A stretch of 64,000 nucleotides of DNA, taken from NCBI GenBank assembly GCA_040219235.1, contig JAVJSV010000011.1, positions 1,116,001-1,180,000 of the forward strand, written 5' to 3'. This stretch comes from Rhodospirillaceae bacterium. GTDB taxonomy: Bacteria; Pseudomonadota; Alphaproteobacteria; Rhodospirillales; Rhodospirillaceae. Numbering within the stretch: position 1 is the stretch's first letter; each line of letters opens with the position of its first letter. The position numbers and the translations under genes are program-made. This document shows positions 7,834 through 25,553 of this stretch, piece by piece. The notes beneath the pieces were generated by a model. That model made no database searches. It was given only the letters and a program-made list of their open reading frames with translations, and had not been told where the DNA came from.

Positions 7834-8010
7834 ATCAGATCTCACTTTGGGCTGATGGCGATGTTCCATATTACAGGGAAGACTTACTGATAAAGCCACT
7901 TTAGGTGGTCGGCGTTCGCCTGAAGGTGGTTTAGAAATAATCTGTACGCTTGACCTCGGCAAAGGTAACGCTACTTTGTCGCCGTCCGCGCTAATATGGC
8001 GGGGCAGGTG

Positions 8011-8087
8011 GGGCCCGTAGCTCAACTGGTTAGAGCCGGCCGCTCATAACGGTCTGGTTGCAGGTTCGAGTCCTGCCGGGCCCACCA
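8011..8087 (+). tRNA. tRNA with CAU anticodon, probably tRNA-Ile2
   Basis: A complete 77-nt cloverleaf including an encoded CCA. Acceptor arms are GGGCCCG (8011-8017) and CGGGCCC (8077-8083), the anticodon stem is GGCCG/CGGTC, and the loop is CTCATAA with anticodon CAT. CAU tRNAs are initiator Met, elongator Met or Ile2 (read AUA after lysidine modification by TilS). C4-G69 and C5-G68 in the acceptor stem match the TilS-recognised Ile2 type, and the first base pair is G-C, which excludes the initiator. The Ile2 call is therefore likely, with elongator Met as the alternative. Confidence 0.9.
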
Positions 8088-8604
8088 CTCCTTTTTGCTC
8101 GAACTCACCGCCAGAGAATTTCTGCCCCGGAATGGCGCAGAACTGGCCGGTTTTGGCTGTAACGGAGACGCTTGCAGACTTCGATTCTCTGCCGAATCGC
8201 CCCAAATCCCTAAAAGTCTCTGTGGCCGATTTCCTGCATCCAGAACGTTGAACGTTGCATGACGATAGAGCTAAATGATGCTGAGAATTTAGAGGGAGAA
8301 GCCCGGGACGCAGCGTTGCCCTTGCTGGTCTGTCGGAAACGGGCTCAGCCGTTTGAGGTGGTTTGTGGTGAGGTTCACCGTCCACATCGTTTTGTTGTCT
8401 TGAATCTCGAATCCATCTTAGAAACATATTTAAAGCAGGTGGGTGCGAATGGTCTCAGTTTTTCTTTCTGAATCATTACCATCGTTATGAGAGAGTATTG
8501 TCATGGGGAATCTAGATGATAGGAAATCTAGCTAATAAAGACCATTTTTTCTGTGATAATAGCTTAAAATAAATCTCGTTTACTCGAAATTGATGCCGCT
8601 GAAA
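8088..8604. other. tRNA-proximal intergenic region, no convincing gene
   Basis: 517 bp between the tRNA and the acyl-CoA dehydrogenase. A 70-codon rightward frame (8259-8471) and a leftward frame running through the tRNA are present, but neither resembles a known protein and neither has a good ribosome binding site. The last 130 bp are AT-rich and lie downstream of the leftward catabolic operon. No integrase remnant or copy of the tRNA 3' end was found here. Confidence 0.5.
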
Positions 8605-9768: not shown

Positions 9769-9769
9769 T

Positions 9770-10564: not shown

Positions 10565-10760
10565 GGTGGCTCCGTGACGTTTCTTTTTAATTACTAGGCC
10601 AAGCTTGTCGATTTGTTCTCCATAGACACACTAGACGCTTCCTGGGCGAAGGGCACTTCAGATAAGTTTTTTTAATATTACCTCTATCAAGAGCTTAGAT
10701 GCCGACTTTTATGGGAAGCCTGTATCATGAATGAAATGTTCGTTTTCTAAGTCGTACCTG

Positions 10761-12320
10761 TTAAATCTTTGTGCGGTTCTTAAGTTCCCTTTTGAGCACC
10801 TTGCCGGCTGGATTTCTCGGGAGCTCTGTTTCGAACATAACCTCTTTAGGAATTTTAAATCCTGCCAGCGATTGCGAGCAGTGCTTCTTAATCTCATTAG
10901 CGGTGACATTTGCTCCGTTCTGCAGAACGATATGTGCGACAAGCTTTTCACCCCATTGGGCATCCTCAACGCCAACGACAGCGGCTTCAGTGACACCAGA
11001 CAGTTCTGAAATGACTTCTTCAATCTCTCTTGGGTACACGTTCAGGCCACCGGAAATGACCATATCCTTTTTGCGATCTACGATATAAATGTAGCCTTCG
11101 TCATCTTTGACAGCCATATCACCAACTGTAACCCAGTCTCCATAGAAGGCTTCGGCGGTCTCTTCGGGTCTGTTCCAGTATCCATTGAAGAGCGAGGGCC
11201 CGGTAGCAAAGAGCTCTCCTACTTCACCATTTTTGACTTCATTCCGATCTTCATCCAGGAGATTTACCGAGGTTGAAAAGAAAGGGTGCCCGACGCATTT
11301 CTGTTTTCTGAGTTGATCAGCTGGCCTGAGATTGGAAACTATCCCAGCTTCTGTAGAGCCATAACACTCAAACAGCTTGTCCGATCCGAAGTAGTCTACA
11401 ATTCTCTCCTTTGAGGATTGTTGTAACGGGGCAGCATTGGAAATGATCGACCTTAGTTTGGTGCCGCGATACTTTTCCAAGGTCTTGTCGTCGAGGTTAA
11501 AAATCTTATGAAATTGAGAAGGTACAAGAAAGACGCCGGTCGCGTTTCCGTGGTGTAGCTTTTCGAGCGTGTGCTCAACATCGTACTGTCTGATGAATTC
11601 ACCGGTGCCTCCAAAGAACAGGCTCGCATATAACATTGTGAAACCGGCTCCATGACACATAGGCGTCGTGCCAAGGAAATGATGGTCTGGACCATAGCAC
11701 CCATATTCAACAGCCATTGCATAGATGTTAAGTGTTCGGGCGCGATGGGGCACAAGAACGCCCTTAGGTTTTCCTGTTGTGCCAGAGGTGTAGGGAATGG
11801 AAAACGTTGTCCATTCATCTGCAAGTGGTTTACGAGGGCGATCGGATGCTTGATCAATCCAAGCTTCAAATTCAGCGCCGAAGGTCATAATTTTGTGAAG
11901 CTTTGGCAGTGCATCTGCATTAATCAAATCCACAAGTTCAGGCTCGGTGAAAACGACTTGTGCCTCGCAGTCTAAGAGTATGTCATTTACTTCAATAGCG
12001 GTAAGGCTTGGGCTTGGAGTCGCAACTGCAACACCCAGATCAGAAATGCCTACCATTACTTCCATGAATTCGAAGCGGTTTCTTGCCAATATTGCAACGT
12101 GATCGCCAGGCCCTAAATTTAAGTCTTCAGCAGCGGCATTGATGATTTTGTTCATGCGACTGACAAACTCGCGGTAGGTTCTCACTTCGGAATCTATCAT
12201 AAGGGCTGGTTTGTTTGGATTTCGAACCGCAGTCGACCGAACACCGTCCGAGATCAATAGTGAAATAAATGACGAAGGAGGCGATGCTGCTGCTCTATTT
12301 TGATGAAGGCGTGTTTGCAT
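10761..12320 (-). CDS. AMP-forming acyl-CoA synthetase
   Basis: A 519-residue ANL-superfamily ligase that activates a carboxylic acid to its CoA thioester through an acyl-adenylate. The P-loop-like core motif is YTSGTTGKPKGVLVPH, then YGSTEAG (A5), TVGDMAVKDDEGYIYIVDRKKDM (A7/A8 hinge), ISGGLNVYPREIEEV, and the C-terminal catalytic lysine in NPAGKVLKREL. The set is complete, so it should be active. It lies 27 bp after the hydrolase at 12348 on the same strand, and precedes the crotonase and dehydrogenase. The obvious role is to prime an acid released by the hydrolase for beta-oxidation. Chain type of the substrate cannot be read by eye. Confidence 0.92.
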   Translation of the reverse strand: MQTRLHQNRAAASPPSSFISLLISDGVRSTAVRNPNKPALMIDSEVRTYREFVSRMNKIINAAAEDLNLGPGDHVAILARNRFEFMEVMVGISDLGVAVATPSPSLTAIEVNDILLDCEAQVVFTEPELVDLINADALPKLHKIMTFGAEFEAWIDQASDRPRKPLADEWTTFSIPYTSGTTGKPKGVLVPHRARTLNIYAMAVEYGCYGPDHHFLGTTPMCHGAGFTMLYASLFFGGTGEFIRQYDVEHTLEKLHHGNATGVFLVPSQFHKIFNLDDKTLEKYRGTKLRSIISNAAPLQQSSKERIVDYFGSDKLFECYGSTEAGIVSNLRPADQLRKQKCVGHPFFSTSVNLLDEDRNEVKNGEVGELFATGPSLFNGYWNRPEETAEAFYGDWVTVGDMAVKDDEGYIYIVDRKKDMVISGGLNVYPREIEEVISELSGVTEAAVVGVEDAQWGEKLVAHIVLQNGANVTANEIKKHCSQSLAGFKIPKEVMFETELPRNPAGKVLKRELKNRTKI

Positions 12321-12347
12321 GTTTGAGATCCAAATACGTTTGGTGCG

Positions 12348-13379
12348 TTAGTTCTTGTGTCTGAAGTTATCTTCAGAAAGTTTAGAATATGATCTGCGAA
12401 ATATGTGAGTCAGTGCGGCGACATCAGCAGGTACTTGTTTGACAAACTCTAGGTAATCTCTAGCGCTTTCCTTTGGATTCTCATAAGTAACATTGTGTCC
12501 AACGCCTTCGTATGTCACCGTTGTAACGGGCGCGTTTATCAATCGACTTTTGAATTCATCAACCTGACTCAAAGGTAAATTGCCGTTAGATTCACCCCAC
12601 ATCAGCAGGGTGGGGGAGCGTATCAAATTAAGTTCTTCAGTGGTGCGACCGATTGTGAATTGTCGATTGCGTTCTATCTCTGCTTCCCGTTGACCTTCAA
12701 CCATATTGAAGCGGTACCACTGATCGACCACGTCATCGGAGATGCTCGCCGGATCGCCAGCAACGTTGCGCAATATATTCTCTACAATTGATTTCGGGGT
12801 GTAGTAGGCAAGAGCGTCAATCCACCAAGCCATCTCATAACGGTCGTCTGGTCCCCTAGTAGGGTTTTTGAGGCCACCAGAATTGATCAGCCCAAGACTT
12901 AAAATTCGATCGGGGTTAGCTGCAGTATATTTGTAAGCGATCATTCCGCCAATTGAAGTCCCAGCTATGTGAAATTTTTCGAGGTTTAGCCGGTCGGCAA
13001 GCTGTTCCAGCAACCAAACGGCACGTTCATTTGTGTAGTCACCAGTTGGATCAACACCAGTTAAGCCGTGGCTTGTCAGGTCAAACCGCACAACGCGATG
13101 GTTCTGCAGAAGGGTTGGCATCCAGAAGTCCCATTGAAACAGGCTTCCCCAATGTCCGTGAATAAGAACAATCGTTGTACCATCACCTTCGTCACGATAG
13201 TGGATCCGAACGTCGTCAATCATCATGAATTGTGATGGCGGCTTACCATAATCCGCTTCCAGAACTTCAACTGGTATGTCGCGATAAATCCAAAGTGTTG
13301 CAAGTAGACCGGCAACACAAATTGCTGCGGTAACGCCAGTCAGATACTTGAGGGCCCTCAGCAGCGCAGAGAATTTCAT
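12348..13379 (-). CDS. membrane-anchored alpha/beta hydrolase
   Basis: A 343-residue alpha/beta hydrolase with one N-terminal transmembrane segment (about residues 12-32), so its catalytic domain probably faces the periplasm. Oxyanion region TTIVLIHGHWGSLFQWDFW, nucleophile elbow AGTSIGGM with Ser, an acidic residue in MWGESNGN, and the catalytic histidine in EGVGHNVTYE are all present, so the triad looks intact. It is first in the leftward catabolic block and is divergent from the flavin reductase at 13640. The palindromic site at 13494-13510 lies in between. Likely an ester, lactone or C-C bond hydrolase; specificity unknown. Confidence 0.85.
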   Translation of the reverse strand: MKFSALLRALKYLTGVTAAICVAGLLATLWIYRDIPVEVLEADYGKPPSQFMMIDDVRIHYRDEGDGTTIVLIHGHWGSLFQWDFWMPTLLQNHRVVRFDLTSHGLTGVDPTGDYTNERAVWLLEQLADRLNLEKFHIAGTSIGGMIAYKYTAANPDRILSLGLINSGGLKNPTRGPDDRYEMAWWIDALAYYTPKSIVENILRNVAGDPASISDDVVDQWYRFNMVEGQREAEIERNRQFTIGRTTEELNLIRSPTLLMWGESNGNLPLSQVDEFKSRLINAPVTTVTYEGVGHNVTYENPKESARDYLEFVKQVPADVAALTHIFRRSYSKLSEDNFRHKN

Positions 13380-13493
13380 ATAGTAGGGTTTTCCTGCTTG
13401 TGGTGCCGGTTAATGGACGATTATTCGCTTACTAAATTTGATTACGAAAGTAGAAAGCAACAGAATTATCCCCACAATTGGCAATCCCGTTTT

Positions 13494-13510
13494 CGCACGC
13501 ATTACGTGCG
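13494..13510. promoter_or_regulatory. candidate operator, site 1 of 3
   Basis: Perfect inverted repeat CGCACG-CATTA-CGTGCG in the divergent region between the hydrolase (start 13379) and the flavin reductase (start 13640). The 15-bp core GCACG-CATTR-CGYGC recurs at 15954 and 21999. Its placement in three promoter regions of one island suggests a common regulator, most simply the IclR protein encoded at 16050. Confidence 0.55.
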
Positions 13511-13639
13511 TATGCTGCGTTGTGTCTGGAGATTGTGTTTGATTTGCCCAAAGTTAGAGAGACGTGATGATCAAGTTTTTCATACCGCAAGGTCGATACG
13601 AACAGGGAGTAGCTGCTTTCTTCACAAGCAAAAATTGAT

Positions 13640-14167
13640 ATGCCGAATGCACCGAGAAATGAAACCAAATCCAATACTGCGGACTCATTTAGATTGGCAA
13701 TGCGCGGTCTTGCAAAGTCCGTCGTGCTCATCTCGAGCGTAGATAAAAACGGGCAACGCCACGTGATGGCAGCAACCGCAGTAACACCAGTAAGTATGGC
13801 ACCGCCTTCCATGCTTTTCTGTATCAACCGTGATGCATCATCCTATCCAGCGCTCAAGGAGGGAGCCGATTTTTGCATAAATGTTTTGGCCAGAGATCAT
13901 TTGTTGCTGGCTCATGTCTGCAGTGTTGGCGCAAAGGGCGAAGCGCGTTTTGATCAAGGCGCGTGGACTCAAGACGAATTTGGCGTTCCTTATCTTGATG
14001 ATGCACAATCATCAATAATTTGTGAGCAAGATCTTTGTCAGTCGTATGGTTCTCATGATATTTTTATTGGCCTCGTGAGAGATATTCATTTCGGCCATGA
14101 AATAGAGCCGCTGGTTTACGCAAACGGCGTATATGATCGGCTCGTTGGCGAAGCGCTTGTTGTGTGA
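13640..14167 (+). CDS. flavin reductase-like domain protein
   Basis: A 175-residue member of the flavin reductase (HpaC/NADH:FMN oxidoreductase) family. It has the split-barrel core SFRLAMRGLAKSVVLISS, the flavin-binding TAVTPVSMAPPSMLFCIN, and the typical SSYPALKEGADFCINVLA segment. Such proteins usually supply reduced FMN or FAD to a separate oxygenase. No partner flavin monooxygenase of the two-component type lies in the island (the FAD monooxygenase at 22133 is single-component by its fold), so the partner may be elsewhere. It is divergent from the hydrolase at 12348 and sits downstream of candidate operator 1. Confidence 0.85.
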   Translation: MPNAPRNETKSNTADSFRLAMRGLAKSVVLISSVDKNGQRHVMAATAVTPVSMAPPSMLFCINRDASSYPALKEGADFCINVLARDHLLLAHVCSVGAKGEARFDQGAWTQDEFGVPYLDDAQSSIICEQDLCQSYGSHDIFIGLVRDIHFGHEIEPLVYANGVYDRLVGEALVV

Positions 14168-14254
14168 TGTTTAGGATTAATTGTTGAACACACATAAGTG
14201 ATTAATGAGTATTCTTGTAACTTCCAACATTATGTAATTGCGAAAAAAGATCGT

Positions 14255-15874
14255 TTATGGCTGAAATGCCATATCCTCAAATTTCAGGCCGCGTGATCCC
14301 ATTTTGACGTTTGTAAGTTTAGGGTTGGACGCAGTGATTTGAGCCGTGTTGGTAAGCCAGATGGCTGGCGCTAATTCACGCATAGCCGACATGATCTGTT
14401 GAAGCGTAGCATCTCTTATTTCTGGGTCAGCTTGTGTCCGGCTTAAGCGGATGTCGTCAGCCAATGCTTCATCACAGAAAAACGGCTTTGGCCGAAGGCA
14501 GGAAAAGTATTCCAATGCCCTACCAACATCGCGCATCGGTTCATTATTCCAGAGCAACGAGAACGCATCGTACTCACCCCAGTCATTGCTAGTAAAGCGC
14601 CGTAAGAATTCTGCTCCGGGTAGAGCTCTGACTTCCGCTGAAATGCCGACTGCGTTTAAGTCCTGGGCAACTTTCTGGTAAGCTAATTCTTGTCCCGATC
14701 CGGCAGCGCTCAAGACACCTATCGTCAGCGGAAAGCCAAGCGGATATCCAGCTTTAACGAGAAGCTCGCGTGCGGTAGAGGGATCATAAGGATAGGGTGT
14801 TAAGTCAGGGTTGAAGCCGACTGTTCCGCGAACAGCTCCTTGACTTGCCGCTTCAACGAATCCCCCAAAGATATGTTTTGCGATGCTCGGTCGATCAACA
14901 GCAAAGTTAAGAGCTTGACGCACCAAAGCTGAGTTCAATGGAGACGATCCCCGCGTCGCATTCGGGAGTGCAACCGATAACACCTGCGAACGCGAATGTA
15001 CCTGCACGTTAAAGCCAGCGTTCTGCAATCCCTCGTACGAGTCGGAATTGAGGTTGTCGATGAGGTCTAAATCACCAGACAGTAAGGCTTGTTCCCGTGA
15101 AACGTTATTAGGCACCTCAGTCAGAATCAGAGTCTTTATTGCAGGTGCTGATGATATAGAATTTATTGACGCTTCTAGGGTGGCAGAGTTGTTGCCACGG
15201 CCCCATTGAACCAATGCATAGGGACCTGTGCCGACTGGTGCCTGAGCATAATTCTCTGGCCCAAGTTCGGTCCAAAGCTTTGGTTCGATCATCATGATAA
15301 GGCTGAGGCGACGCGGTAAGATAGCATCCGGCTCGATGGTGACGATTTCTACGTCATGGTCCGAGAGGGCATGAACGCTATCAATATTCTTGACCTCAGT
15401 GGCCAAAAGGTAACGAGCAGCTTCTGCACTTTTCAAATAATTAATTGTCGTTGTAACGGATTGGGCATCAAAAGGAGCACCATTATGGAAAAGCACATCA
15501 CGACGCAAGCTAAACACCCATCGTTTCGGCTCTGTTTGTTCCCATTTCACCGCTAAAGACGGAGCGACAGTCCCATCTTCAGAGATCTCAGTCAGGGGGT
15601 CGAAAATGCTTGCCCAGAAATGTCCAGATGGAAGCCCCATAGCTGTATAAGGATTGCCAAGAGAGGGCGGTAGCTCAGCGATGCCCACGTGCAAAATGTC
15701 CGGCTTAGCAAAGCTAGGTCCAGTGCTCCAAAGGCCGAATAGTAGAAAGGTACTTGAGAGAATAAGTAGCCTTTTCCGCTTCTGCTGAAGCCAGAATAGC
15801 TTGAGGCCATTACACCGGGCCTGGACTTTCTGAGTTCCAAAGTCGGTGTCGAATTTTATTGTATTTTGTGACAT
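14255..15874 (-). CDS. ABC transporter substrate-binding protein, peptide/opine type (SBP family 5)
   Basis: A 539-residue periplasmic binding protein. After a basic stretch, the hydrophobic LLILSSTFLLFGLWSTG and PSFA form a signal peptide. The mature part starts DILHVGIAELPPSLGNPYT and has the family signature around WVFSLRRDVLFHNGAPFDA. Near the C-terminus two cysteines (CLRPKPFFC) may form a disulfide; the paralogue at 26647 has the same pair. No permease or ATPase gene is adjacent, so it either borrows a transporter or serves as a sensor or carrier. It is divergent from the IclR regulator, with a candidate operator in the gap. Confidence 0.88.
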   Translation of the reverse strand: MSQNTIKFDTDFGTQKVQARCNGLKLFWLQQKRKRLLILSSTFLLFGLWSTGPSFAKPDILHVGIAELPPSLGNPYTAMGLPSGHFWASIFDPLTEISEDGTVAPSLAVKWEQTEPKRWVFSLRRDVLFHNGAPFDAQSVTTTINYLKSAEAARYLLATEVKNIDSVHALSDHDVEIVTIEPDAILPRRLSLIMMIEPKLWTELGPENYAQAPVGTGPYALVQWGRGNNSATLEASINSISSAPAIKTLILTEVPNNVSREQALLSGDLDLIDNLNSDSYEGLQNAGFNVQVHSRSQVLSVALPNATRGSSPLNSALVRQALNFAVDRPSIAKHIFGGFVEAASQGAVRGTVGFNPDLTPYPYDPSTARELLVKAGYPLGFPLTIGVLSAAGSGQELAYQKVAQDLNAVGISAEVRALPGAEFLRRFTSNDWGEYDAFSLLWNNEPMRDVGRALEYFSCLRPKPFFCDEALADDIRLSRTQADPEIRDATLQQIMSAMRELAPAIWLTNTAQITASNPKLTNVKMGSRGLKFEDMAFQP

Positions 15875-15953
15875 GGGGCCTCTTGTCGGTCAGTCGGTGT
15901 AAAAGAATGAAAACATGCGATCCCTCTGCCTGCTACAAGCTAACTTTTCGATG

Positions 15954-15968
15954 GCACGCATTGCGTGC
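15954..15968. promoter_or_regulatory. candidate operator, site 2 of 3
   Basis: Perfect inverted repeat GCACG-CATTG-CGTGC, 80 bp upstream of both the binding-protein start (15874) and the IclR start (16050). Same core and spacing as site 1. Position fits autoregulation of iclR and control of the divergent binding-protein gene. Confidence 0.6.
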
Positions 15969-16049
15969 TTTAATGGTGGCTGGTCTTGTGAAACGATTAT
16001 TTAGCGTCACTCTAAACACATCCCATAAACCGAAGTGAACTCATCAGAT

Positions 16050-16859
16050 ATGGAGCAAAAAAGAATAGTACAAGCTTTTGATCGGGGTCTGGACGTCTTG
16101 GTCTATTTGAACACGCACGATGGCGCGTCCATCGGTGAAGTGGCCAGTGCCACAGGAATTAACCGTGGGATTGTTTATCGCCTCTTGGAAACGCTTCGCA
16201 AGAAGAACTACGTCACAAAAAAGGCTGAGTCCCCTAAGTATTGGCTCACAAATGCTGTGCGTAATCTGGCAGATGGCTTCAATGATGAGGAATGGGTTGA
16301 GACAATTGCCAAACCGGTGGTGAATGCACTTGGTCGAGATTTGATGTGGCCAATATCGCTGACCACATTGTCGGGTAATTCCATGCTGGTGAGAGTTTCG
16401 TCAGACTCACAAAGCCCTCTGGTTTTGAATCGGTATTCCAGAGGATTTAGGTTTTCTATACCTCAGTCAGCGTCAGGACTTTCCTATCTAGCGTTTAGCA
16501 CGCAGCAGCAACGTGCTTCGTTAATTGAAGTGCTGCTAAGATTGTTGGATGACCCCGATGATTTGTCCATCTTGAGTTCTGCGAATTTATCCTCGCGTCT
16601 TGATAAAATCCGCAGCCAGGGATACGCGTCTGTTCGAGGTCAGTTGGCCAACACAGGTGCTATTTCAGTTCCGATTAGATTCGGAGACATAATGTTTGGA
16701 GCGTTATCTCTTCGGTATTTTCAATCAGCTCTGAGTCCTGCGAAAGCGGCAACACAATTTTATCAGCCCCTGACCGACAGCGCCGATAATATTGCCGAAT
16801 CACTTGTTGGAGTTGATCAGCACAGCATCACGAGTTCTAAAAAGAGCGACCAGCGATGA
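16050..16859 (+). CDS. IclR-family transcriptional regulator
   Basis: A 269-residue IclR regulator. The N-terminal winged helix-turn-helix is clear: ALDRG-type start IVQAFDRGLDVLVYL, GASIGEVASATGINRGIVYR as recognition region, and LRKKNYV as the wing. The C-terminal effector domain follows from about residue 75 and would bind a small organic acid. An in-frame GTG at 16035 would add 5 residues. The gene sits centrally in the island, divergent from a binding protein and upstream of the rightward catabolic genes. Members usually repress or activate adjacent aromatic or organic-acid pathways; which applies here is not evident. Confidence 0.93.
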   Translation: MEQKRIVQAFDRGLDVLVYLNTHDGASIGEVASATGINRGIVYRLLETLRKKNYVTKKAESPKYWLTNAVRNLADGFNDEEWVETIAKPVVNALGRDLMWPISLTTLSGNSMLVRVSSDSQSPLVLNRYSRGFRFSIPQSASGLSYLAFSTQQQRASLIEVLLRLLDDPDDLSILSSANLSSRLDKIRSQGYASVRGQLANTGAISVPIRFGDIMFGALSLRYFQSALSPAKAATQFYQPLTDSADNIAESLVGVDQHSITSSKKSDQR

Positions 16860-16949
16860 GCGAGTGCTTCGTTGAGATTAAGTCCTGCTGCCGGGTTCAC
16901 CTTGCCAGCTCAGCTGCAACTCATAAGTTTTTTTTACAGAGGATAATCC

Positions 16950-17801
16950 ATGCTTGACAACGCAGACCTTATGATTCCTGGCCCCGATGGGAGAATCTCC
17001 GTTCGAACACGCGGTATGGGCGACAATAACGGCAACGTTGTTGTGCTCGTCCAGGGTGCCAATGTTTCGGGGCAGGCCGGGTATGATTTCAAGTTTGATG
17101 GCGGCGCAGATTATTCGTTTATGGATGGCCTGTCAGCGCGCGGAATTGGCTCTGTTACATTTTCTATTCGCGGATATGAAAAATCAGAATTAAAAAGTGC
17201 TCCGCTATCTGTACAAACAGAGCAAGCCATTGAAGATCTCGCCGCCGTTGTCAATTGGCTGAATTCAGAAGGCATAAAAAAACCGCACCTTCTTGGTTGG
17301 TCTTGGGGAGGTAGAATCTCTGGGCGCTATGTTGAAAGCAATCCGGATCGCATAGACCGGCTTGTGCTGCTGGACCCTGCCTTGGGGGGCGGTCAATTGG
17401 TTCTTCCTCATCCGACAGAGGAATGGTGGGATAATACCTACGACTACTTCTTCAACCGTTTGGAAGAAGAATACACCGAGTTACAAGCCCGTAAGGCGTT
17501 TGCCGCCCTTGTTTCGTCTACTGAACCAAAGGCACCAAATGGCATTCGGCAGGAAAATGCTAACGGAAGCATACCCACTAATCCGGCGGCCATAACACGC
17601 CCCACAATGCTGCTGTATGGTGATGCCGCGGGCGCAGCAAACTATATGCATGGCAGCCAGCGGCGTGGTGATTTCTTTGAAAGTCTAGGCACTCAAGATA
17701 AATCACTGATGGTCATTCCAGGGGCTGGCGATTATGCGCACATTCAGAATCCGCGTATTCGTTTCCAGAAGGCAGTTGCTGACTTTCTGACAGTGTTTTA
17801 A
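16950..17801 (+). CDS. alpha/beta hydrolase
   Basis: A 283-residue soluble alpha/beta hydrolase without a signal peptide. The nucleophile elbow is GWSWGGRISG (Ser with a flanking Trp), an acid lies in YGDAAG, and the catalytic histidine is probably in GDYAHIQNPR. NVVVLVQGANVSG replaces the usual HG oxyanion motif with QG, which is uncommon. Good ribosome binding site (AGAGGAT) before the ATG. It opens the rightward gene run after the regulator, with 77 bp to the EthD-like gene, so it is probably co-transcribed with the downstream genes. Substrate unknown. Confidence 0.85.
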   Translation: MLDNADLMIPGPDGRISVRTRGMGDNNGNVVVLVQGANVSGQAGYDFKFDGGADYSFMDGLSARGIGSVTFSIRGYEKSELKSAPLSVQTEQAIEDLAAVVNWLNSEGIKKPHLLGWSWGGRISGRYVESNPDRIDRLVLLDPALGGGQLVLPHPTEEWWDNTYDYFFNRLEEEYTELQARKAFAALVSSTEPKAPNGIRQENANGSIPTNPAAITRPTMLLYGDAAGAANYMHGSQRRGDFFESLGTQDKSLMVIPGAGDYAHIQNPRIRFQKAVADFLTVF

Positions 17802-17878
17802 GCACGGCATCAAGTGAATCAGCTTGGTTCAGTTACACAAGAAAATTACCAATACAGAACGAGTTAAATAGGTAACAC

Positions 17879-18799
17879 ATGACCCTCGTCGATATTGAAA
17901 ATAAGGCAGGTCTGTGCCGCATCACATGCGGCTGGAAAAAACCTGAATTACCAATTGACTGGGTGCGGCGTTACTGGCGCGACGTGCACAGTCCTGCTAT
18001 CGCGCGGCGCGCTGGACTCTATGATTACCGCCACTATCAATATGACCCCGTACGTAAAGATGTATTGGCTCCGATTGTGAGCGTTGAATTTGCTGCCCCC
18101 CCTCTCGAACAGCTGATGTGGACGTCGGATGTTCGCTATAGAGACGAGGCGGCTTTAGCGCTTTTCGATAAGTCGCCTGAGGGTAAAGCGAAATCCGATA
18201 TCCTTGGTGATATTGATATTATTGTGGATCAGAGCACCACTTACCGTGCTGTAAATGGAAATGCGTTTACCTATGTAGACGAGACAGGCATCGCTATGCC
18301 GCAGGGGCCATGTGCCGCGCCGACATTCGCGCTCTTCATTCGCAGCAAATCGAGCGAAGAAGAGTTCCGGTCTTGCCTGCGCCAAATTGCAGAAAGCTGG
18401 TCAAAAATAACGGGTGTTCTCCGTCTCCGGCTTAGCTTGTTTGACGCGCCCGATATGGAGAAAGAGCGTCAGGCGGGTTACCCGGTTAAGACTCATCCCG
18501 TGGAACGGCAATATCAAGCCTGTATAGAGATCGCTTTGGACACTGAAGCGCGTGGTAAGACATTGGTCTGCGACGATGATGGGATTGATTATGCGTCTCA
18601 CATCTCGGTTATTCACGCTTACCCCGTACGTGTCATCTACACCAGCAACTACAACGGAAAACCGACATTGGTGGGCCTGCGTGGATATCCTGCTTACGAA
18701 GCTTTGACCGCTCTAGATGCCGAAAACCAGCGGCAAACAAGCCTGTTGGAGTGGATGTATGGCGATATTGCTAAAAACGGAACGGCAGAGGGCTCCTAA
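17879..18799 (+). CDS. EthD-like tandem dimeric alpha/beta-barrel protein
   Basis: A 306-residue protein with two EthD-like ferredoxin-fold halves. The first contains WVRRYWRDVHSPAIARR and AGLYDYRHYQYD, the hallmark of EthD-type proteins. The second (about residues 155-290) has FALFIRSKSSEEEFRSCL and HPVERQYQACIEIALDTEA. EthD was named from an ether-degradation cluster and its family is recurrent in catabolic clusters, with no firm biochemical role. The stop overlaps the ATG of the MmgE/PrpD gene by one base (TAATG), implying coupled translation. Confidence 0.7.
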   Translation: MTLVDIENKAGLCRITCGWKKPELPIDWVRRYWRDVHSPAIARRAGLYDYRHYQYDPVRKDVLAPIVSVEFAAPPLEQLMWTSDVRYRDEAALALFDKSPEGKAKSDILGDIDIIVDQSTTYRAVNGNAFTYVDETGIAMPQGPCAAPTFALFIRSKSSEEEFRSCLRQIAESWSKITGVLRLRLSLFDAPDMEKERQAGYPVKTHPVERQYQACIEIALDTEARGKTLVCDDDGIDYASHISVIHAYPVRVIYTSNYNGKPTLVGLRGYPAYEALTALDAENQRQTSLLEWMYGDIAKNGTAEGS

Positions 18800-20175
18800 T
18801 GCTAGACAGATCAGTATCAGAGAGATTGATTGATTTCGCCTTTGAATGGAAAGAGCGTGGGGTTCCCGAGGATGTGACGCACGAAGCTAAGCGGCTTCTT
18901 CTTAATCAACTCAAAGCGTCGGTCGGCGCAACCCAAACTGAAACCGTTAGAATTCTTCATGAGTCTATCGCGCCACCTCGGCCAGATCAAAAACTTGCAC
19001 ACGTTCTTTGGCTGGGGACTCAAACCACCCAAGAAGACGCCGCACTGGTTAACGGTGCTCTCTATGAAGTCCTTGATTTCCACGACACCTATATCCCTTG
19101 CTACATGCATGCCACATCGGCGGTTTTACCAGCAGTTATGGCTGCCGCTGAAGGGAGGAGTAAAAGTGGCAAAGAGGTCATTGAAGCGCTCGCGTTGGGC
19201 ATGGAAATTGAATTGGCCATCGCGACGATACTCATGCCGACGGCCTATTTTCGTGGCTACGTCCCAGCAGGTTTGACAGGCAGTGTCGGAGCTGCGGCGG
19301 CCTGCAGTATCTTGGCAGGATTGAGCAAGGAACAGATGCGTAACGCGATCGGCATCGCCATGTGCACGGCATTCGGGCTGTATGTCTCTGTTGGCAGTAT
19401 GACGCTCTCCTACATCACCGGAGCAACCGCACGATCCGGCTTGACGGCTTTCAGTCTTGCAGAGAAGGGGTTCGACGCACCGAAGACGGCCTTTGAAGGC
19501 GACAAGGGTATGTTGGTGACTCACTCCGATGAAGATGTGAAAAAAATTGATGAGGTGCTTGGCACATTAGGTCAGAGTTGGCGCATTCATGGTCAAACTT
19601 ACAAAGTCATACCAACTGAAACCATTACCCATGGACCAGTTGAGTTAGTCCTAGACGTTCTGCCAAGGGCCAAAGGCCGTGACGTCGAGAGTCTCGAGTT
19701 TGCAGTGTGTCCGATCGTCAAAGAAATTTGCGACGAGCGGATGGAGCGGTTTGGTGATCCCGACAGTGAATTGACCGCAAGGTTTGATCTTTGCTTTTGC
19801 GCTGCAGCTGCCTGGCAGCGTGGCCGGTTCACCTTGGATGAAATGCGGGAACCAGCCTACACAGATAAAGATATTCTTGATCTGCGATCACGGACGCGTC
19901 TCGTAAAGGATGAAACGCGCGAGACCTTTGAAGGCTGTTCTTTGACCGTTAGATTTACGGACGGGACCACCGAAACCGCAAACGTCGATGCATTTTTGGG
20001 CAGCCCAGGCAGTCGCATGACAGACGAGCAGCTTTCTGATCTGTTCCGCATGTCTTCAGCTGATGTTTTACCTCAGGGCCGTGCGGATCAAATTTTAGAT
20101 GCGGTTTGGACCCTCGAAGACGCTGACAGTATCTCTAACCTCATATCGCTTCTGACTCTCAAGCAGACGGTGTGA
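18799..20175 (+). CDS. MmgE/PrpD family protein
   Basis: A 458-residue member of the family that includes 2-methylcitrate dehydratase and cis-aconitate decarboxylase. The all-helical N-terminal domain holds EVLDFHDTYIPCYMHATSAV, the region corresponding to the active site His-rich loop, and the smaller C-terminal domain starts near residue 270 (THGPVELVLDVLPRAKG). Overlaps the preceding EthD-like gene by one base and is followed by a hydrolase whose ATG lies 2 bp after the stop. A dehydratase or decarboxylase acting on a hydroxy or unsaturated acid in this pathway is the reasonable inference; it is not a clear PrpD because no methylcitrate genes are near. Confidence 0.88.
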   Translation: MLDRSVSERLIDFAFEWKERGVPEDVTHEAKRLLLNQLKASVGATQTETVRILHESIAPPRPDQKLAHVLWLGTQTTQEDAALVNGALYEVLDFHDTYIPCYMHATSAVLPAVMAAAEGRSKSGKEVIEALALGMEIELAIATILMPTAYFRGYVPAGLTGSVGAAAACSILAGLSKEQMRNAIGIAMCTAFGLYVSVGSMTLSYITGATARSGLTAFSLAEKGFDAPKTAFEGDKGMLVTHSDEDVKKIDEVLGTLGQSWRIHGQTYKVIPTETITHGPVELVLDVLPRAKGRDVESLEFAVCPIVKEICDERMERFGDPDSELTARFDLCFCAAAAWQRGRFTLDEMREPAYTDKDILDLRSRTRLVKDETRETFEGCSLTVRFTDGTTETANVDAFLGSPGSRMTDEQLSDLFRMSSADVLPQGRADQILDAVWTLEDADSISNLISLLTLKQTV

Positions 20176-20177
20176 AA

Positions 20178-20987
20178 ATGACAACTGTTACCCTAAGCCA
20201 GGGCGAGACCTTCTGGTATAAGAAGACCGGATCAGGTCCACCTTTACTCCACATCCATGGCTCAGCCTTTGGTCACCGTAACTTTGAAAAGCTCACCCCG
20301 CGTGTTGCAGAAAAGTTTGAAGTGATTGACTTTGACCTACCTGGATACGGCCAAAGCGTTGGGGCGTCCAGGCCAGGCGGTATGGAGGGTCTCGCGGAGC
20401 AGGTGTATGAGTTTATCCTTCGGACTGGCTATGAGCGGGTAAACTTACACGGCACATCATTTGGGGCCATGATCGGTTTTTGCCTTGCCGCACATCATCC
20501 CGAAGTGATTGATCATCTCATTCTGAGTTGTTTCCTCGCGAGATATGATAACGCGGCCCGCATGATGCGCGGAACCTGGAAGCGTGCGGCGCGAGACAGC
20601 GGTATGGAAGCTGTCGCTGACTTAACATCAGTTGCTGGATTCGCCCGCAGTTTCTACGATCTTGATGGTGCACGAGCACAACTGCAATCCATGCGCGATG
20701 CCTTTAACAATACTGACCCTGAGGCATTCATCGCCGGCACCGAAACCATTGAGAAGACTGACCTTAGTCATCTGACTTCGAAGATATCAGCGCCTACGCT
20801 CCTGCTCGCGGGTGATGAAGACAATATGACTCCCTTCAGTCCCTCCGAGAGCGGTGTTGGAATGTCTAATATTTCCGAGGGCCTCAAGACCTGTGAAACC
20901 AAAATACTAGATCAATGTGGGCACTATCTCGTCATTGAGCAGCCTGAATTGGCGGCAAAATACATTGCTGACTTCATCAATAGATAG
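20178..20987 (+). CDS. alpha/beta hydrolase
   Basis: A 269-residue alpha/beta hydrolase with an intact triad: oxyanion region LLHIHGSAFGHRNF, nucleophile elbow HGTSFGAMIG, acid in AGDEDNM, histidine in LDQCGHYLVIEQPE. The ATG at 20178 is used; an in-frame GTG at 20172 overlaps the TGA of the upstream gene and could start translation instead. The fold is that of meta-cleavage product hydrolases, lactonases and esterases. Close packing with the MmgE/PrpD gene places it in the same transcript. No export signal, so it acts in the cytoplasm. Confidence 0.86.
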   Translation: MTTVTLSQGETFWYKKTGSGPPLLHIHGSAFGHRNFEKLTPRVAEKFEVIDFDLPGYGQSVGASRPGGMEGLAEQVYEFILRTGYERVNLHGTSFGAMIGFCLAAHHPEVIDHLILSCFLARYDNAARMMRGTWKRAARDSGMEAVADLTSVAGFARSFYDLDGARAQLQSMRDAFNNTDPEAFIAGTETIEKTDLSHLTSKISAPTLLLAGDEDNMTPFSPSESGVGMSNISEGLKTCETKILDQCGHYLVIEQPELAAKYIADFINR

Positions 20988-21001
20988 AGGTTGGTCGGAA
21001 G

Positions 21002-21121
21002 ATGGCAGAAATAGCAAAAGAGGCAGAGCTGCCATTTCATTGTAGCGGCAAAGGTTGGTGGATTTGGTCCGCGCTTCATTTCTATCTGGCCTCACGTGCC
21101 ATTGAGCGTGAGTTGAAATGA
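21002..21121 (+). CDS. possible 39-residue small protein overlapping the next gene
   Basis: ATG at 21002 opens 39 codons (MAEIAKEAELPFHCSGKG, then WWIWSALHFYLASRAIEREL and K). Its TGA overlaps the ATG of the following hydrolase-like gene in the ATGA arrangement typical of coupled genes. A tryptophan/aromatic-rich helix forms the C-terminal half. GAGG lies about 13 nt upstream of the ATG. I do not recognise the protein. It may be a real small partner of the next gene, or simply a translated leader that positions ribosomes on it. The gap would otherwise be 130 bp in a tightly packed operon, which supports a function. Confidence 0.5.
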   Translation: MAEIAKEAELPFHCSGKGWWIWSALHFYLASRAIERELK

Positions 21122-21942
21122 CCAGAACGTCTGCTCTTAGAAAGTCCTATGTTGATGGCCTCTATGGCCAAGTACATATGTTAACTGGTGGGCAAGAGCG
21201 GGCTTCCAAACCGCCCTTATATATGCTTCATGCCACTGCATATTCAGGCCGAACGTTTTCTCCATTGATGGAAAAGCTTTCTGACAATCGGATTGTGCAT
21301 GCACCGGACACACCCGGATATGGTGGCTCAGACCGTCCGTCTGAACTTCCAGACCTTGGCGGCTATGCTGAAGCATTTATTGACCTCGTATCCAAGACAA
21401 CCAATTCGGAGTCTGGTCCCGTTGATGTTCTTGGATATCACACAGGTGTTTTTATTGCGCTTGAGGTAGCTGCTCAACGCCCTGAGTTGTTTCGATCTGT
21501 AATCCTCATTGGCGTGCCACATTATCTCGGAGCAGAGAGAGAAGAGCGGAGGGCGGTGCTGGCTGAGAAAACCAAATTGACGGAAGACTTTGAACAGTTC
21601 AGAGCGCGTTGGGAGTACTTTATTCGCGACCGCACACCAGGCTTATCTTTGTCACGAGCCTTTGAATGTTTCGTTGACGAATTACGCGCTTATCCTAATC
21701 AATGGTGGGCGCATGAAGCCTTATTTACTTATGACACTGTTTCCAGCTTAGAGCGGGTTGATTGCCCTGTTTTGATATTAAATCCGAACAACCCGCTTTC
21801 TGGTCCGTCCAGGGCTGCTGCAAAAATACTCAAAAATGTCGAGTTCATTGAACTCCCGACATTGTCAGGTGCGATTTTTGACCTCGGAGTTGAACAAATT
21901 ACCGAACGCGTGGAAGACTTCTTGAATCGGCAAGATCGTTAA
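21118..21942 (+). CDS. alpha/beta-hydrolase-fold protein lacking the catalytic triad
   Basis: A 274-residue paralogue of the exported protein at 6859: shared landmarks are RKSYVDGLYGQVH, LHATAYSG, HAPDTPGYGGSD and LGYHTGVF. His108 replaces the nucleophilic Ser in the elbow, the acid position reads NPNNPL instead of an Asp, and the C-terminal region LPTLSGAIFDLG has no histidine where the catalytic one belongs. All three triad positions are thus changed, more extensively than in the paralogue. It has no signal peptide. It could be a binding protein, a non-hydrolytic enzyme, or a decaying copy, but the frame is intact and its start is coupled to the upstream small gene. Confidence 0.75.
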   Translation: MTRTSALRKSYVDGLYGQVHMLTGGQERASKPPLYMLHATAYSGRTFSPLMEKLSDNRIVHAPDTPGYGGSDRPSELPDLGGYAEAFIDLVSKTTNSESGPVDVLGYHTGVFIALEVAAQRPELFRSVILIGVPHYLGAEREERRAVLAEKTKLTEDFEQFRARWEYFIRDRTPGLSLSRAFECFVDELRAYPNQWWAHEALFTYDTVSSLERVDCPVLILNPNNPLSGPSRAAAKILKNVEFIELPTLSGAIFDLGVEQITERVEDFLNRQDR

Positions 21943-21998
21943 AGCGCGCTTGGCCATTGTTTTGTTAAACACAAAACACAGAGATAATCGTTCACGGT

Positions 21999-22013
21999 GC
22001 ACGCATTGCGCGC
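21999..22013. promoter_or_regulatory. candidate operator, site 3 of 3
   Basis: GCACG-CATTG-CGCGC, one mismatch from the perfect repeat of site 2, in the 190-bp gap before the FAD monooxygenase (start 22133). The gap suggests a separate promoter for the monooxygenase, NmrA-like and serine-hydrolase genes under the same control as sites 1 and 2. Confidence 0.5.
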
Positions 22014-22132
22014 TTTCTATGCATGACAACTTGTCTGCATTTCTGCGTGTGAAATAGGTTTTTGTTCTAACCAAAGCGAATAAGTCTCATAAATCAAGCT
22101 GTTGCTGACGCATTGAAACCCGGAGTTTTCAC

Positions 22133-23311
22133 TTGCCACTTAACAAGATAGGGACTCGCTTAATTATTGCTGGTGCGGGTATTGGCGGTCTGGCAGCGGC
22201 TTTATCCTGTCAAAAGATCGGGCGGCAGGTTCGTATTTTCGAGCGTGCAAAGACGCTCGGTGAAATTGGCGCAGGCATCATGCTCACGCCCAATTCGGTT
22301 AAATGCTTAGAATACTTGGGCGTTGGTGAAGCATTGGCGGCGGCTGCGATCGAACCTTCAGAGTCAATCTATCGTAAATTCGATACTGCTGAAGTTATTA
22401 TGCGCGCTGGGGTGAAAGACAGAATGCGCGACACTTATGGTGCCGGTTACTACCTGATCCACAGAGCTGATTTGCACTCTATTCTGATGCAGGCTGTGCT
22501 GGCTTATGACCCTGAAGCTATATGTCCGGGTTACGGGGTTACCGGAATAGATCAGAGTGATGAGAGTGTTGCTGTGCGCTTTGAAAATGGGGAGTCCGTT
22601 TCCGGCCATCTCCTAATTGGCTGTGACGGCATTCACTCTCAGGTGCGCGCGAGTTTGTTTGGTAAGAGCAATGCGCAGTACACCGGGCAATCTGCCTGGC
22701 GCGGCATGGTCCCAACTGAAGGACTGCCTGAATCTGTGATTGAGCCAAGCATGATCTCCTGGATTGGTGAGGACAAGCACATCATACAATACCCTGTCCG
22801 GCAGGGACGCTTGATCAATTATGTTGCGATTGTAGCCCTTGAAGATTGGGCAGAAGAAGGTTGGAATAGAGCTGCGCCTGTTGAGGAGGTCATTGCGCAG
22901 TTTGCTGAGTGGCACCCAGATATCTTGCAACTTATTTCCTCCACGCCGTTAAAGGATTGTTACAAGTGGGGACTGTTCGTTCGAGAACCTTTGAAATCTT
23001 GGACTGTCGGTCGTGTAACGTTGCTTGGCGATGCCGCGCATCCGACACTCCCATTTGCTGCGCAAGGTTCCGCGATGGCGATCGAAGATGCTGTTGTATT
23101 AGGTCGTGCATTGGCTGACCAAGATAATGACGAACGTGCGCTAAAAGTTTATCAAAACACACGCCTTTCGCGCACCACGTGGCTTGTCGAGCATGCTCGA
23201 CAAGCCACGAAACTATATCAACGTGTTCACGGAGATAAGTCTAAAGAGCGAGCTGCGAGTGTAGAAGAGATTTACAGCTACGATGCGATTCAATGTCCTC
23301 TCGCAGCATAA
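22133..23311 (+). CDS. FAD-dependent aromatic-type monooxygenase
   Basis: A 392-residue class A flavoprotein monooxygenase (salicylate hydroxylase / 3-hydroxybenzoate 6-hydroxylase type). The Rossmann motif is IIAGAGIGGLAAAL, GCDGIHSQVR is the DG motif, and LLGDAAHPTLPFAAQGSAMAIEDA holds the GD motif and active-site prolines. Translation probably starts at TTG 22133, with GGAG 8 nt upstream and no ATG nearby. Such enzymes hydroxylate a phenolic or related ring with NAD(P)H and oxygen. Near its 3' end the coding sequence contains a 32-bp perfect palindrome (23178-23209). Follows candidate operator 3 and precedes the NmrA-like gene by 47 bp. Confidence 0.9.
   Translation: MPLNKIGTRLIIAGAGIGGLAAALSCQKIGRQVRIFERAKTLGEIGAGIMLTPNSVKCLEYLGVGEALAAAAIEPSESIYRKFDTAEVIMRAGVKDRMRDTYGAGYYLIHRADLHSILMQAVLAYDPEAICPGYGVTGIDQSDESVAVRFENGESVSGHLLIGCDGIHSQVRASLFGKSNAQYTGQSAWRGMVPTEGLPESVIEPSMISWIGEDKHIIQYPVRQGRLINYVAIVALEDWAEEGWNRAAPVEEVIAQFAEWHPDILQLISSTPLKDCYKWGLFVREPLKSWTVGRVTLLGDAAHPTLPFAAQGSAMAIEDAVVLGRALADQDNDERALKVYQNTRLSRTTWLVEHARQATKLYQRVHGDKSKERAASVEEIYSYDAIQCPLAA
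23178..23209. repeat. 32-bp perfect palindrome inside the monooxygenase gene
   Basis: Two 16-bp arms, CGTGGCTTGTCGAGCA and its exact reverse complement, abut without spacer. They encode the TWLVEHARQAT stretch. There is no following T-run. The site could form an mRNA hairpin or a cruciform; a regulatory or recognition role is open. Confidence 0.75.
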
Positions 23312-23358
23312 TCTTGTCGGCGCAGGTATGACACCAAACCTAAGTTAGGAACATAATT

Positions 23359-24225
23359 ATGGTTACATTGGTATTCGGCGGAACCGGTAAAGTAGGTTCG
23401 GCGGCGGTTAGGCGTTTGGTCGAGAAGGGCCGAACCGTTCGTGTGTTTACACACTCTCCAGACAAACTCTCGATTCTTCCATCTGGTGTCGAGGCTGCGC
23501 AAGGTGATCTCGATAAACCTGAGACTATCCCGGCAGCCTTTGACGGCGTTGATGAGGTGATGCTCATCTTAGCGGTTAATCCGGCAGAGCAAGCGCGGGG
23601 CTTGGCCGTGGTAGAGGCAGCTAAAGCTGCCGGTGTTAAAAGATTGGCCTTTTTGTCTCTGGTGCATGGGCCAGGAACAGAGAAGGTGCCCTTCTACCAA
23701 AGCAAGCTTGCAATCGAAGCGGCGTTCAAACAGTCGGGCATGGCGTGGGCCATTGTCAGGTCGAGCAGCTTTTTTCAGTCGGATGCTGGTTTGAAATCAG
23801 AAATTGTTGATCAAGGTGTGTTTAGCGCACCAATTGGATCGGTGGGCGTTAATCGCATAGATACGCGCGATGTTGGGTATGCGATGGCAGAAGCGTTGAC
23901 CAAAGAGCCTTTTGAAACAGGTGAATTTCGTGTTTTTGGACCGGACTCTCTTACTGGCGATAGCATTGCTGAAATCTATTCAAAACTCCTCGGAAAACCG
24001 ATCCGCTACTATGGAGATGACCTTGATCAATGGGCGGAATTTAAAAAGGGTACATTTCCTCCGTGGTCGTTGAATGCGCTGCGTCACATGTATGCTGCGA
24101 CTCAACAAACGGGAATGAAACCCGAAGAAGGCGAGGCAAAAAGCAGTCTATTGCCAGATGAATTAATTACCTTCGAAAAGTTTGCGCGCGAGCTTATGAG
24201 CACGGGTACGATATCCGTTAAATGA
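23359..24225 (+). CDS. NmrA-like NAD(P)-binding protein
   Basis: A 288-residue atypical short-chain dehydrogenase of the NmrA / NAD(P)H-dependent azoreductase group. The N-terminal dinucleotide motif is LVFGGTGKVGSAAVRRL, followed by the usual VFTHSPDKLS and GDLDKPETI segments; LAFLSLVHGPG replaces the SDR catalytic YxxxK region. Some members sense redox state, others reduce quinones or azo dyes. It lies 47 bp after the monooxygenase with TAGGAA upstream, so a role in reducing a quinone formed by that enzyme is conceivable but unproven. Its stop overlaps the first in-frame ATG of the next frame. Confidence 0.85.
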   Translation: MVTLVFGGTGKVGSAAVRRLVEKGRTVRVFTHSPDKLSILPSGVEAAQGDLDKPETIPAAFDGVDEVMLILAVNPAEQARGLAVVEAAKAAGVKRLAFLSLVHGPGTEKVPFYQSKLAIEAAFKQSGMAWAIVRSSSFFQSDAGLKSEIVDQGVFSAPIGSVGVNRIDTRDVGYAMAEALTKEPFETGEFRVFGPDSLTGDSIAEIYSKLLGKPIRYYGDDLDQWAEFKKGTFPPWSLNALRHMYAATQQTGMKPEEGEAKSSLLPDELITFEKFARELMSTGTISVK

Positions 24226-24251
24226 TCTGGTTATTTAGTAGGATCTCAAAC

Positions 24252-25553
24252 ATGAAAGTGCCATTTGGGTACCTCGCTATTATTATTGTTTGCGCCGTCG
24301 CAGCTGTAACGCCTGTGTATGCGCAATTAAAAAAAATTGACGGTTTCTATGTCGGGGAACTGATGTTTTCCTCCGAAGAGGAAGCGGAATACCTGGAGCG
24401 TCATAAAAAGGCTCAGGTGCGAGCAGCAGCGGATGAGATCTACGTTGATCAAGAAACTATTCTCGGAGCCCCGAACTGGGAACCGCTTCCGACTGCCTTG
24501 CCGGACGAGCGAACGATCTCAGAACCAGCTCTGCAGGATGCGGTCACATATGTGGCCAAAAATAATTCAAACGCTTTTATCGTTTGGCGGAATGGTAAAG
24601 TTGAGTTGGAAAGCTACTTTGGTGACCATACGCGTTCCACACCGATCATTTCTCATTCTCTTGCAAAGCAAGTCACGGCATTCGCCATTGGGCGCGCACT
24701 TTCCCTCGGAGATATTAAATCGCTTGATCAGCCAGTAGCTGACTATGTAACAGAATGGAGAGACGACCCTCTACGCAATAAGATACTTGTTCGTCATTTA
24801 TTGGATATGCGCGCTGGGTTTTTACCGCAAGGTGGGGGCGCTGATCCGAGGGACGTCATGTCTCGAACCTTCTTACATCCAAGGCATGATGAGATCATCA
24901 TTGCGGAATATCCGGTAATAAATGAACCTGGCACGCGCTACGATTACAACAATGCAGCAAGCGAAATGGTTGCTGTATTAATTGAACGTGCCACTGGGCG
25001 GCGGTACGCAGAATTCGTAGGGACTGAAATTTGGCAAAAGATCGGGGCCATGGGCGGAACGGTTTGGGTTAATCGGCCCGAAGGTATGGCCCACGCTGGA
25101 TGCTGCATGATGGTGCCTGCTGAGAATTTCTTGCGCCTCGGTATTTTAATGCTGCAGGACGGCGTTTGGGGCGGGCAGCAGCTTTTGCCAGAGGGTTATG
25201 TTCAGAAAATGATAACGCCGACCAAAGAAAACCCATACTTTGGTTTGAGTATATGGGTGGCTGGTCCCTATACTGACCGACGCGGTTTTTCAAATCCGGA
25301 CAGCGGATTGCCGCAAATTCTTCACAGCGAGCCCTATTTTGCGGATGATCTTTATCTGTTTGATGGCAATGCAAACCAAGTCGTTTATATCGTCCCTTCT
25401 CAGAACCTTGTCGTACTTCGAACAGGACTGCCGCCAGCGCGTGGCGAGGGCATTGAATGGGATAATTCATACCTTCCCAATGCAATTATGCGCGGTATCT
25501 ATAAGGATCAGCGGGTGTCGGTCCCGCAATCGGGTTTATTGAATAGTCAGTAA
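24252..25553 (+). CDS. exported serine hydrolase (beta-lactamase class C / esterase family)
   Basis: A 433-residue periplasmic serine hydrolase. The ATG at 24252 has AGGAT upstream and opens a signal peptide (GYLAIIIVCAVAAVTPVYAQ). The SxxK motif is Ser136-Leu-Ala-Lys139 in HSLAKQ and the YxN motif is in RYDYNNAASE. Family members include esterases, D-aminopeptidases and 6-aminohexanoate-dimer hydrolases as well as beta-lactamases. An in-frame ATG at 24222 overlaps the NmrA-like stop but adds 10 residues ahead of the signal peptide. Last gene of the island before the decayed transposase. A catabolic esterase or amidase fits the setting better than antibiotic resistance. Confidence 0.87.
   Translation: MKVPFGYLAIIIVCAVAAVTPVYAQLKKIDGFYVGELMFSSEEEAEYLERHKKAQVRAAADEIYVDQETILGAPNWEPLPTALPDERTISEPALQDAVTYVAKNNSNAFIVWRNGKVELESYFGDHTRSTPIISHSLAKQVTAFAIGRALSLGDIKSLDQPVADYVTEWRDDPLRNKILVRHLLDMRAGFLPQGGGADPRDVMSRTFLHPRHDEIIIAEYPVINEPGTRYDYNNAASEMVAVLIERATGRRYAEFVGTEIWQKIGAMGGTVWVNRPEGMAHAGCCMMVPAENFLRLGILMLQDGVWGGQQLLPEGYVQKMITPTKENPYFGLSIWVAGPYTDRRGFSNPDSGLPQILHSEPYFADDLYLFDGNANQVVYIVPSQNLVVLRTGLPPARGEGIEWDNSYLPNAIMRGIYKDQRVSVPQSGLLNSQ

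Follow-up and report, generated by a model that had tools for sequence, protein, structure and literature searches.

A 64,000-nucleotide stretch of a Rhodospirillaceae bacterium (contig JAVJSV010000011.1, positions 1,116,001 to 1,180,000; hereafter the window) carries a catabolic island in which a 15-bp palindrome, GCACGCATTRCGYGC, stands in three promoter regions. Comparison with related genomes suggests that this palindrome is very probably the operator of the IclR-family regulator encoded in the same island. The pattern is matched exactly at three places in the window and nowhere else in the 3.97-Mb genome. The exact sites are thus restricted to the locus; they lie in gene gaps, are inherited together with one clade of regulators, and are absent from catabolic clusters that lack a member of that clade. 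The sites and the regulator are as follows.

13495-13509 (17-bp extension 13494-13510), no strand assigned: operator 1, CGCACGCATTACGTGCG, in the divergent gap from 13379 to 13640 between a hydrolase gene (minus strand) and a flavin reductase gene (plus strand)
15954-15968, no strand assigned: operator 2, the perfect palindrome GCACGCATTGCGTGC, in the divergent gap from 15874 to 16035 between a binding-protein gene (minus strand) and iclR (plus strand)
21999-22013, no strand assigned: operator 3, GCACGCATTGCGCGC, in the gap from 21942 to 22133, ahead of a FAD monooxygenase gene
16035-16859, plus strand: IclR-family regulator, starting at GTG 16035 or ATG 16050, proposed reader of the operators

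The preliminary description had placed the palindrome at 13494-13510, 15954-15968 and 21999-22013, and the exact matches are confirmed there. Its remark that the core was not noticed elsewhere also holds, as the window has no further site with up to two mismatches and the genome no other exact match; at up to three mismatches the window has 13 matches, close to the shuffled mean of 9.4. All three copies are intergenic by the gene calls used, as had been claimed, and gaps make up 9.9% of the region 6859-25553. Two reading frames of 131 and 114 aa over 13495 conflict with the flavin reductase gene and appear spurious. The operator centres sit 74-138 bp ahead of start codons: that of operator 2 is 74 bp ahead of the iclR GTG at 16035 and 87 bp ahead of the binding-protein start, that of operator 3 is 127 bp ahead of the monooxygenase start at 22133, and that of operator 1 is 123 bp from the first gene of the leftward block (the hydrolase at 12348-13379). 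A comparable family of palindromes, meaning three or more 15-mers that agree to within two mismatches and pair in at least 6 of 7 arm positions, with gene gaps ignored, is present in 5 of 200 dinucleotide-shuffled windows. The triple by itself is therefore modest evidence, not rare enough in shuffles, and for this reason relatives were compared.

The regulator belongs to the IclR family by its domains, HTH_IclR scoring 40.2 bits (Pfam cut-off 22) and IclR_C 38.3 bits (cut-off 24). The nearest NCBIfam models are the MhpR-type ones of PRK09834, and all score below cut-off (158.8 versus 269, 157.9 versus 299 and 145.7 versus 251). Membership in the PcaR/PcaU/PobR group is not indicated (TIGR02431, 67.9 versus 284.75), and a Pfam scan of the 20 proteins of 6859-32230 detected no transcription-factor family besides IclR. 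Homologues were sought in 61 genomes, 73 genomes of the family, 385 of the class and 199 of the order. Fifteen of the 61 genomes have an IclR match at E<=1e-30, and the window's own genome has nine further matches at this threshold. The tree built from them has 71 rows, namely 70 of the 75 IclR matches (five were omitted, two of them at contig ends) and one from the class search. In this tree the window regulator and those of genomes G006 (59% identical), G029 (49%), G011 (42%) and G022 (41%) form one clade, with support of 100/98 and present in all 200 bootstrap trees. A neighbouring clade comprises nine regulators, one of them in the own genome (C8:147976-148710). The order-level search added two homologues outside the tree, in G110 and G505 (36-37% identical), whose upstream regions hold arm forms with at best three mismatches (GCACG) or two (GCTCG). 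A remote match (29%) from a contig scan was not used.

Across 98 genomes, the own included, the exact palindrome GCACGCAWTGCGTGC occurs at three places only, and the reversed-pattern control is found in one of the 98 genomes. These are the window, a place in G029 at a distance of 46 bp from the IclR match, and the G011 cluster, where the palindrome precedes the flavin reductase gene; each of these clusters encodes the window IclR or a member of its clade. In the class-wide sample the perfect palindrome is found in 4 of 385 genomes, again including the own, versus 2 of 385 for the reversed control, which is background level; the 3-kb loci of the other three genomes have no match to 23 window proteins. 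At the iclR promoter, the arms GCACG-N5-CGTGC are matched without mismatch in the window, G029 and G011, with one mismatch in G006 and with two in G022, so that all five clade members have a site there, that of G022 being weak.

A position weight matrix (PWM) built solely from the three window sites was also applied to the relatives. In G029 it finds the perfect palindrome by iclR. In G011 it scores 19.9 bits by iclR and 20.2 bits ahead of the binding-protein gene, with the centre 375 bp from its start, and a perfect palindrome (L072 14971) stands ahead of the flavin reductase orthologue (68% identical), opposite a methyltransferase gene. In G006 the scores are 20.2 between iclR and a beta-lactamase-family gene and 16.5 between the binding-protein and luciferase-like genes, the latter site being centred 121 bp ahead of the start of the binding-protein orthologue; one further match (16.2) lies inside a gene for a major facilitator superfamily (MFS) protein. 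In G022 a site of 16.5 is at the iclR start. At a threshold of 18, there are five matches in the 69.5 kb of the four regulator-bearing orthologue loci, none in the 182 kb that surround ten paralogues (nine in the own genome, G000, and one in G003), and none in 146 kb around catabolic clusters without a clade member, with a shuffle mean of 0.085. For this last control the hydrolase, 306-aa protein, MmgE/PrpD, monooxygenase and NmrA genes were traced to relatives, mostly 50-89% identical, in G001, G002, G004 and G009, with G029 and G011 each adding a second cluster. No clade member is found beside any of these clusters; a regulator of the neighbouring clade is about 9 kb from the G009 cluster, and a more distant homologue is near the second G029 cluster. 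The single match of at least 16 in the 146 kb is located where G006 has its MFS coding match, and is the same word reversed. In G004 the catabolic operon is preceded by a site (GCACGCAATACGATC, 14.6 bits) that G006 and G002 do not share. Since cluster gene order differs among the genomes, the agreement of the sites is not leftover DNA identity, and since the sites track regulator-bearing loci and not catabolic clusters without a clade member, the operator follows the regulator and not the enzymes. The suggestion of the preliminary description that the IclR protein is the reader is well supported by this pattern, in which the operator accompanies the clade through five genomes with rearranged gene order.

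Several observations weigh against this assignment. With up to two mismatches the own genome has 43 strand-hits, about three times the 12 of the reversed-pattern control and mostly coding, and this excess has no explanation beyond sequence composition. These hits fall at 38 places (3 exact, 2 with one mismatch and 33 with two), 34 of which overlap an open reading frame (ORF) of at least 100 aa, a count that includes window position 13495. Many matches in coding regions had been named in the preliminary description as a ground for rejection; they appear only at two mismatches, and at zero or one mismatch there are five places. The two one-mismatch places are within an ORF of at least 712 aa (C12:891446) and in a repeat-rich gap (C7:110704), and the 3-kb locus of an intergenic place with two mismatches (C16:44174) has no match to 23 window query proteins. 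Among the 57 homologues outside both clades, 19 also reach two mismatches or fewer in the arm test, three of them one mismatch, so the G022 site counts little. One of these homologues, L048 in G029, a regulator not of the clade, has a similar upstream word, GCGCGCATTGCGTGC, and the tree program warns of long-branch joins for G011 and G022. The monooxygenase sites are weak in the relatives, with 12.8 bits in G011 (L072 6154) and 13.0 bits in G022 (L073 10586), both between iclR and the FMO homologue. Both G029 and G011 combine a cluster that has a clade member with another, of EthD/MmgE type, that lies elsewhere and has no sites. The G006 catabolic operon, although 76-86% identical, has no site of at least 16 before it, and regulon content therefore varies.

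In the proposed mechanism, two regulator subunits would each read one GCACG half-site, and an IclR dimer on each palindrome would switch the flanking promoters according to an effector. A single effector-dependent switch for a catabolic substrate would cover iclR, the divergent binding protein, the flavin reductase and the monooxygenase-NmrA-hydrolase operon, with the leftward hydrolase/acyl-CoA block as a tentative member; binding, effector dependence and operon extents are predictions of this scheme. The genes concerned are listed below.

13640-14167, plus strand: flavin reductase (Pfam PF01613), predicted target of operator 1
14255-15874, minus strand: family-5 solute-binding protein (Pfam SBP_bac_5), predicted target of operator 2
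22133-25553, plus strand: FAD monooxygenase, NmrA-like protein and beta-lactamase-family protein, predicted target operon of operator 3
12348-13379, minus strand: alpha/beta hydrolase, with which the leftward block begins
8605-12320, minus strand: acyl-CoA synthetase, enoyl-CoA hydratase and acyl-CoA dehydrogenase of the leftward block, tentative target
16950-20987, plus strand: hydrolase, 306-aa protein, MmgE/PrpD protein and hydrolase, starting 90 bp past iclR
21118-21942, plus strand: alpha/beta hydrolase ahead of operator 3

The genes at 16950-20987 are possibly part of the iclR transcript, and orthologues of them occur without operators in other genomes. The preliminary description had joined the beta-oxidation block, the binding protein and the monooxygenase into one regulon, which stands in part. 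The predicted links to the binding protein and the flavin reductase recur in relatives, and that to the monooxygenase recurs more weakly. For the beta-oxidation block the support is positional (it is divergent at operator 1, with TTGT at 25 bp) and does not extend across species, as the 13 loci compared hold no acyl-CoA synthetase or enoyl-CoA hydratase homologue. A narrower IclR switch, conserved for iclR, the binding protein, the beta-lactamase-like gene and the luciferase-like/flavin reductase genes and leaving the beta-oxidation block outside, is a possibility of some weight, if clearly the lesser one. It agrees with this lack of homologues and with the sites of G006, which cover only the iclR/beta-lactamase-like and binding-protein/luciferase-like genes, but operator 1 stands close ahead of the first gene of the block, with the same TTGT spacing as at iclR and the monooxygenase. 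With the IclR operator, an uncharacterised catabolic island gains a defined and testable switch, and conserved regulon genes are distinguished from optional ones.

The promoter geometry may bear on how the switch works. The TTGT elements that share one spacing are the following.

13474-13477, minus strand: TTGT facing the leftward block, 25 bp from the centre of operator 1; it may begin the -35 box of the hydrolase/acyl-CoA genes
15986-15991, plus strand: TTGTGA, with 25 bp to the centre of operator 2; candidate -35 box for iclR
22031-22036, plus strand: TTGTCT, with 25 bp to the centre of operator 3; candidate -35 box for the monooxygenase operon

TTGT is exactly 25 bp from an operator centre in three of the five window promoters (leftward block, iclR and monooxygenase); for the binding protein it is at 23 bp, and for the flavin reductase at 18 and 31 bp. 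Counting relatives, the spacing occurs in 4 of 20 site-gene pairs, the fourth being the G011 monooxygenase. No tetramer at any fixed position beats TTGT at 25 bp, and word-blind shuffles reach the same maximum in 20 of 1000 cases for the five window promoters and in 21 of 1000 for the 20 pairs. If this TTGT is the start of a -35 element, the operator would be near -60, ahead of the promoter boxes that RNA polymerase reads, which is an activator-like position, and ligand-dependent activation of the targets is somewhat favoured over repression. On the other side of the balance, 16 of the 20 pairs, among them all those of G006, G029 and G022, have no TTGT at 25 bp, and complete sigma-70-like promoters give fewer matches in 13300-22300 than in shuffled sequence (5 versus 9.8); because of these two results repression is not far behind.

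An IclR-type switch is of a well-known kind, and what is new here is a half-site that published subgroup consensuses do not list. IclR group-1 operators have the motif GKTYCRYW3-4RYGRAMC, with most site centres 20-80 bp ahead of the start and with tandem sites spaced by 18-22 bp in 94 orthologous groups, though not universally (Suvorova and Gelfand 2021, PMC8222616). The window sites resemble this motif in the 17-bp frame, with G (K) at -7, C at -4, R at -3 and Y at -2, an AT-rich centre and dyad symmetry, and the centre of the iclR site is likewise less than 80 bp from the start codon. The group-1 core C-R-Y-W3-R-Y-G is matched at 8 of 8 positions in all three sites, with 6/7, 7/7 and 6/7 arm pairs. 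Unlike the motif in its published form, all three have C at -6 (published T) and A at -5 (published Y), and of the three only site 2 has G at -8. No second palindrome with at least 6 of 7 arm pairs is found near any of the three, so the tandem arrangement at 18-22 bp is not seen here. The operator of E. coli MhpR, GGTGCACCTGGTGCACA (Table 1 of PMC8222616), has the same frame, including the G at -7 and the C at -4, and the best NCBIfam models of the window regulator are PRK09834, but the half-site is GGTGCACC versus GGCACGCA and the best score is 158.8 against a cut-off of 269. PheR, which represses phenanthrene genes in Sphingobium and is of the IclR family (PMC13273656), likewise governs an aromatic catabolic cluster; it differs in being described with a 44-bp footprint and a GCAACG minimal motif, and in serving another pathway. 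A full-text search for the operator letters within one limited literature collection found no paper.

A regulator encoded elsewhere in the genome, such as another IclR paralogue, is quite unlikely to be the reader. The nine further IclR matches in the own genome would supply candidates, and the palindrome upstream of paralogue L095 has the same CGCATTGCG core, but the exact sites are confined to the IclR locus, the nine G000 paralogue loci together give one PWM match of at least 16 (in a repeat-rich gap), and the same clade of regulators has a promoter site in five genomes.

The operator arms of the wider homologues provide a setting for the GCACG form. A palindrome with the IclR core is present within 200 bp upstream of 15 of the 71 homologues versus none of 71 coding pieces, with 0.61 expected. 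Within the frame, G at -7 and C at -4 hardly change, and the bases at -6/-5 vary, being CA here and CT, TT, CC, AA, AT, TC or TG elsewhere. Paralogues L095, L115, L099, L103, L110, L041, L033 and L093, from the own and related genomes, have upstream palindromes in the same frame with other arms, for example GGTTCGCATTGCGAACC and TGCCCACATTGTGGGCA. In the neighbouring clade, GCTCG-N5-CGAGC is matched within one mismatch by seven of nine members, with two mismatches by one and with three by another; among the 57 other homologues six are within one mismatch, two of them perfect. This form is one symmetric base pair, at +/-5, from GCACG-N5-CGTGC. Strictly the two clades are not sisters, since the second is joined by L098, L099 and L110 (92/74, unstarred). 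Just ahead of the conserved arginine of the recognition helix, all five GCACG regulators have Asn, and the four GCTCG regulators compared have Thr. This Asn/Thr difference is not the whole code, as Asn is paired with GTTCG arms in L095 and Thr with GTCCG arms in L099. A speculative and rather doubtful idea is that MhpR-like IclR paralogues of this bacterial family split their regulons through operator-arm changes in one fixed frame, with Asn/Thr perhaps helping to insulate them. Kin whose operators differ by one base pair lend themselves to tests of how coexisting regulons are kept apart by IclR proteins, and they may supply orthogonal regulator-operator pairs.

That the sites are short-repeat copies or terminator hairpins without a regulatory role is most improbable: similar triples in shuffled windows, the terminator-like hairpin score of site 3 (5 pairs) and the one-mismatch C7 copy among short repeats would fit, but the genome has no further exact copy, which speaks against a dispersed repeat, terminator-like matches are at shuffle level (9 versus 8.8), which speaks against a terminator hairpin, two of the three sites are between divergent genes, and the sites keep their place beside orthologous genes from genome to genome. 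The C7 intergenic match adjoins REP-like short repeats, GCGCATAGTAAAACAGC...GCTGTTTTAGGACGTGGCGCGTGC, at L076 14470-14720 of the own genome, ahead of a gene that by eye resembles a TonB receptor.

Beside the island, a second cluster without an operator copy occupies window positions 26647-32230 and encodes a family-5 binding protein, a flavocytochrome-like FAD protein, an MFS transporter and a Gfo/Idh/MocA protein. A luciferase-like monooxygenase (PF00296) is encoded in all four relative clusters (L069 16171-17334, L072 12894-14078, L071 5183-6547 and L073 7795-8970); none of the 20 window proteins scanned matches this family, and the partner of the window flavin reductase is therefore not evident. 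The 306-aa protein (17879-18799) has no Pfam match even at E 1. Nine of 297 genomes of the order encode it, the own among them; it is 54-88% identical elsewhere and adjoins MmgE/PrpD in eight of the nine, the ninth (G022) being cut by a contig end.

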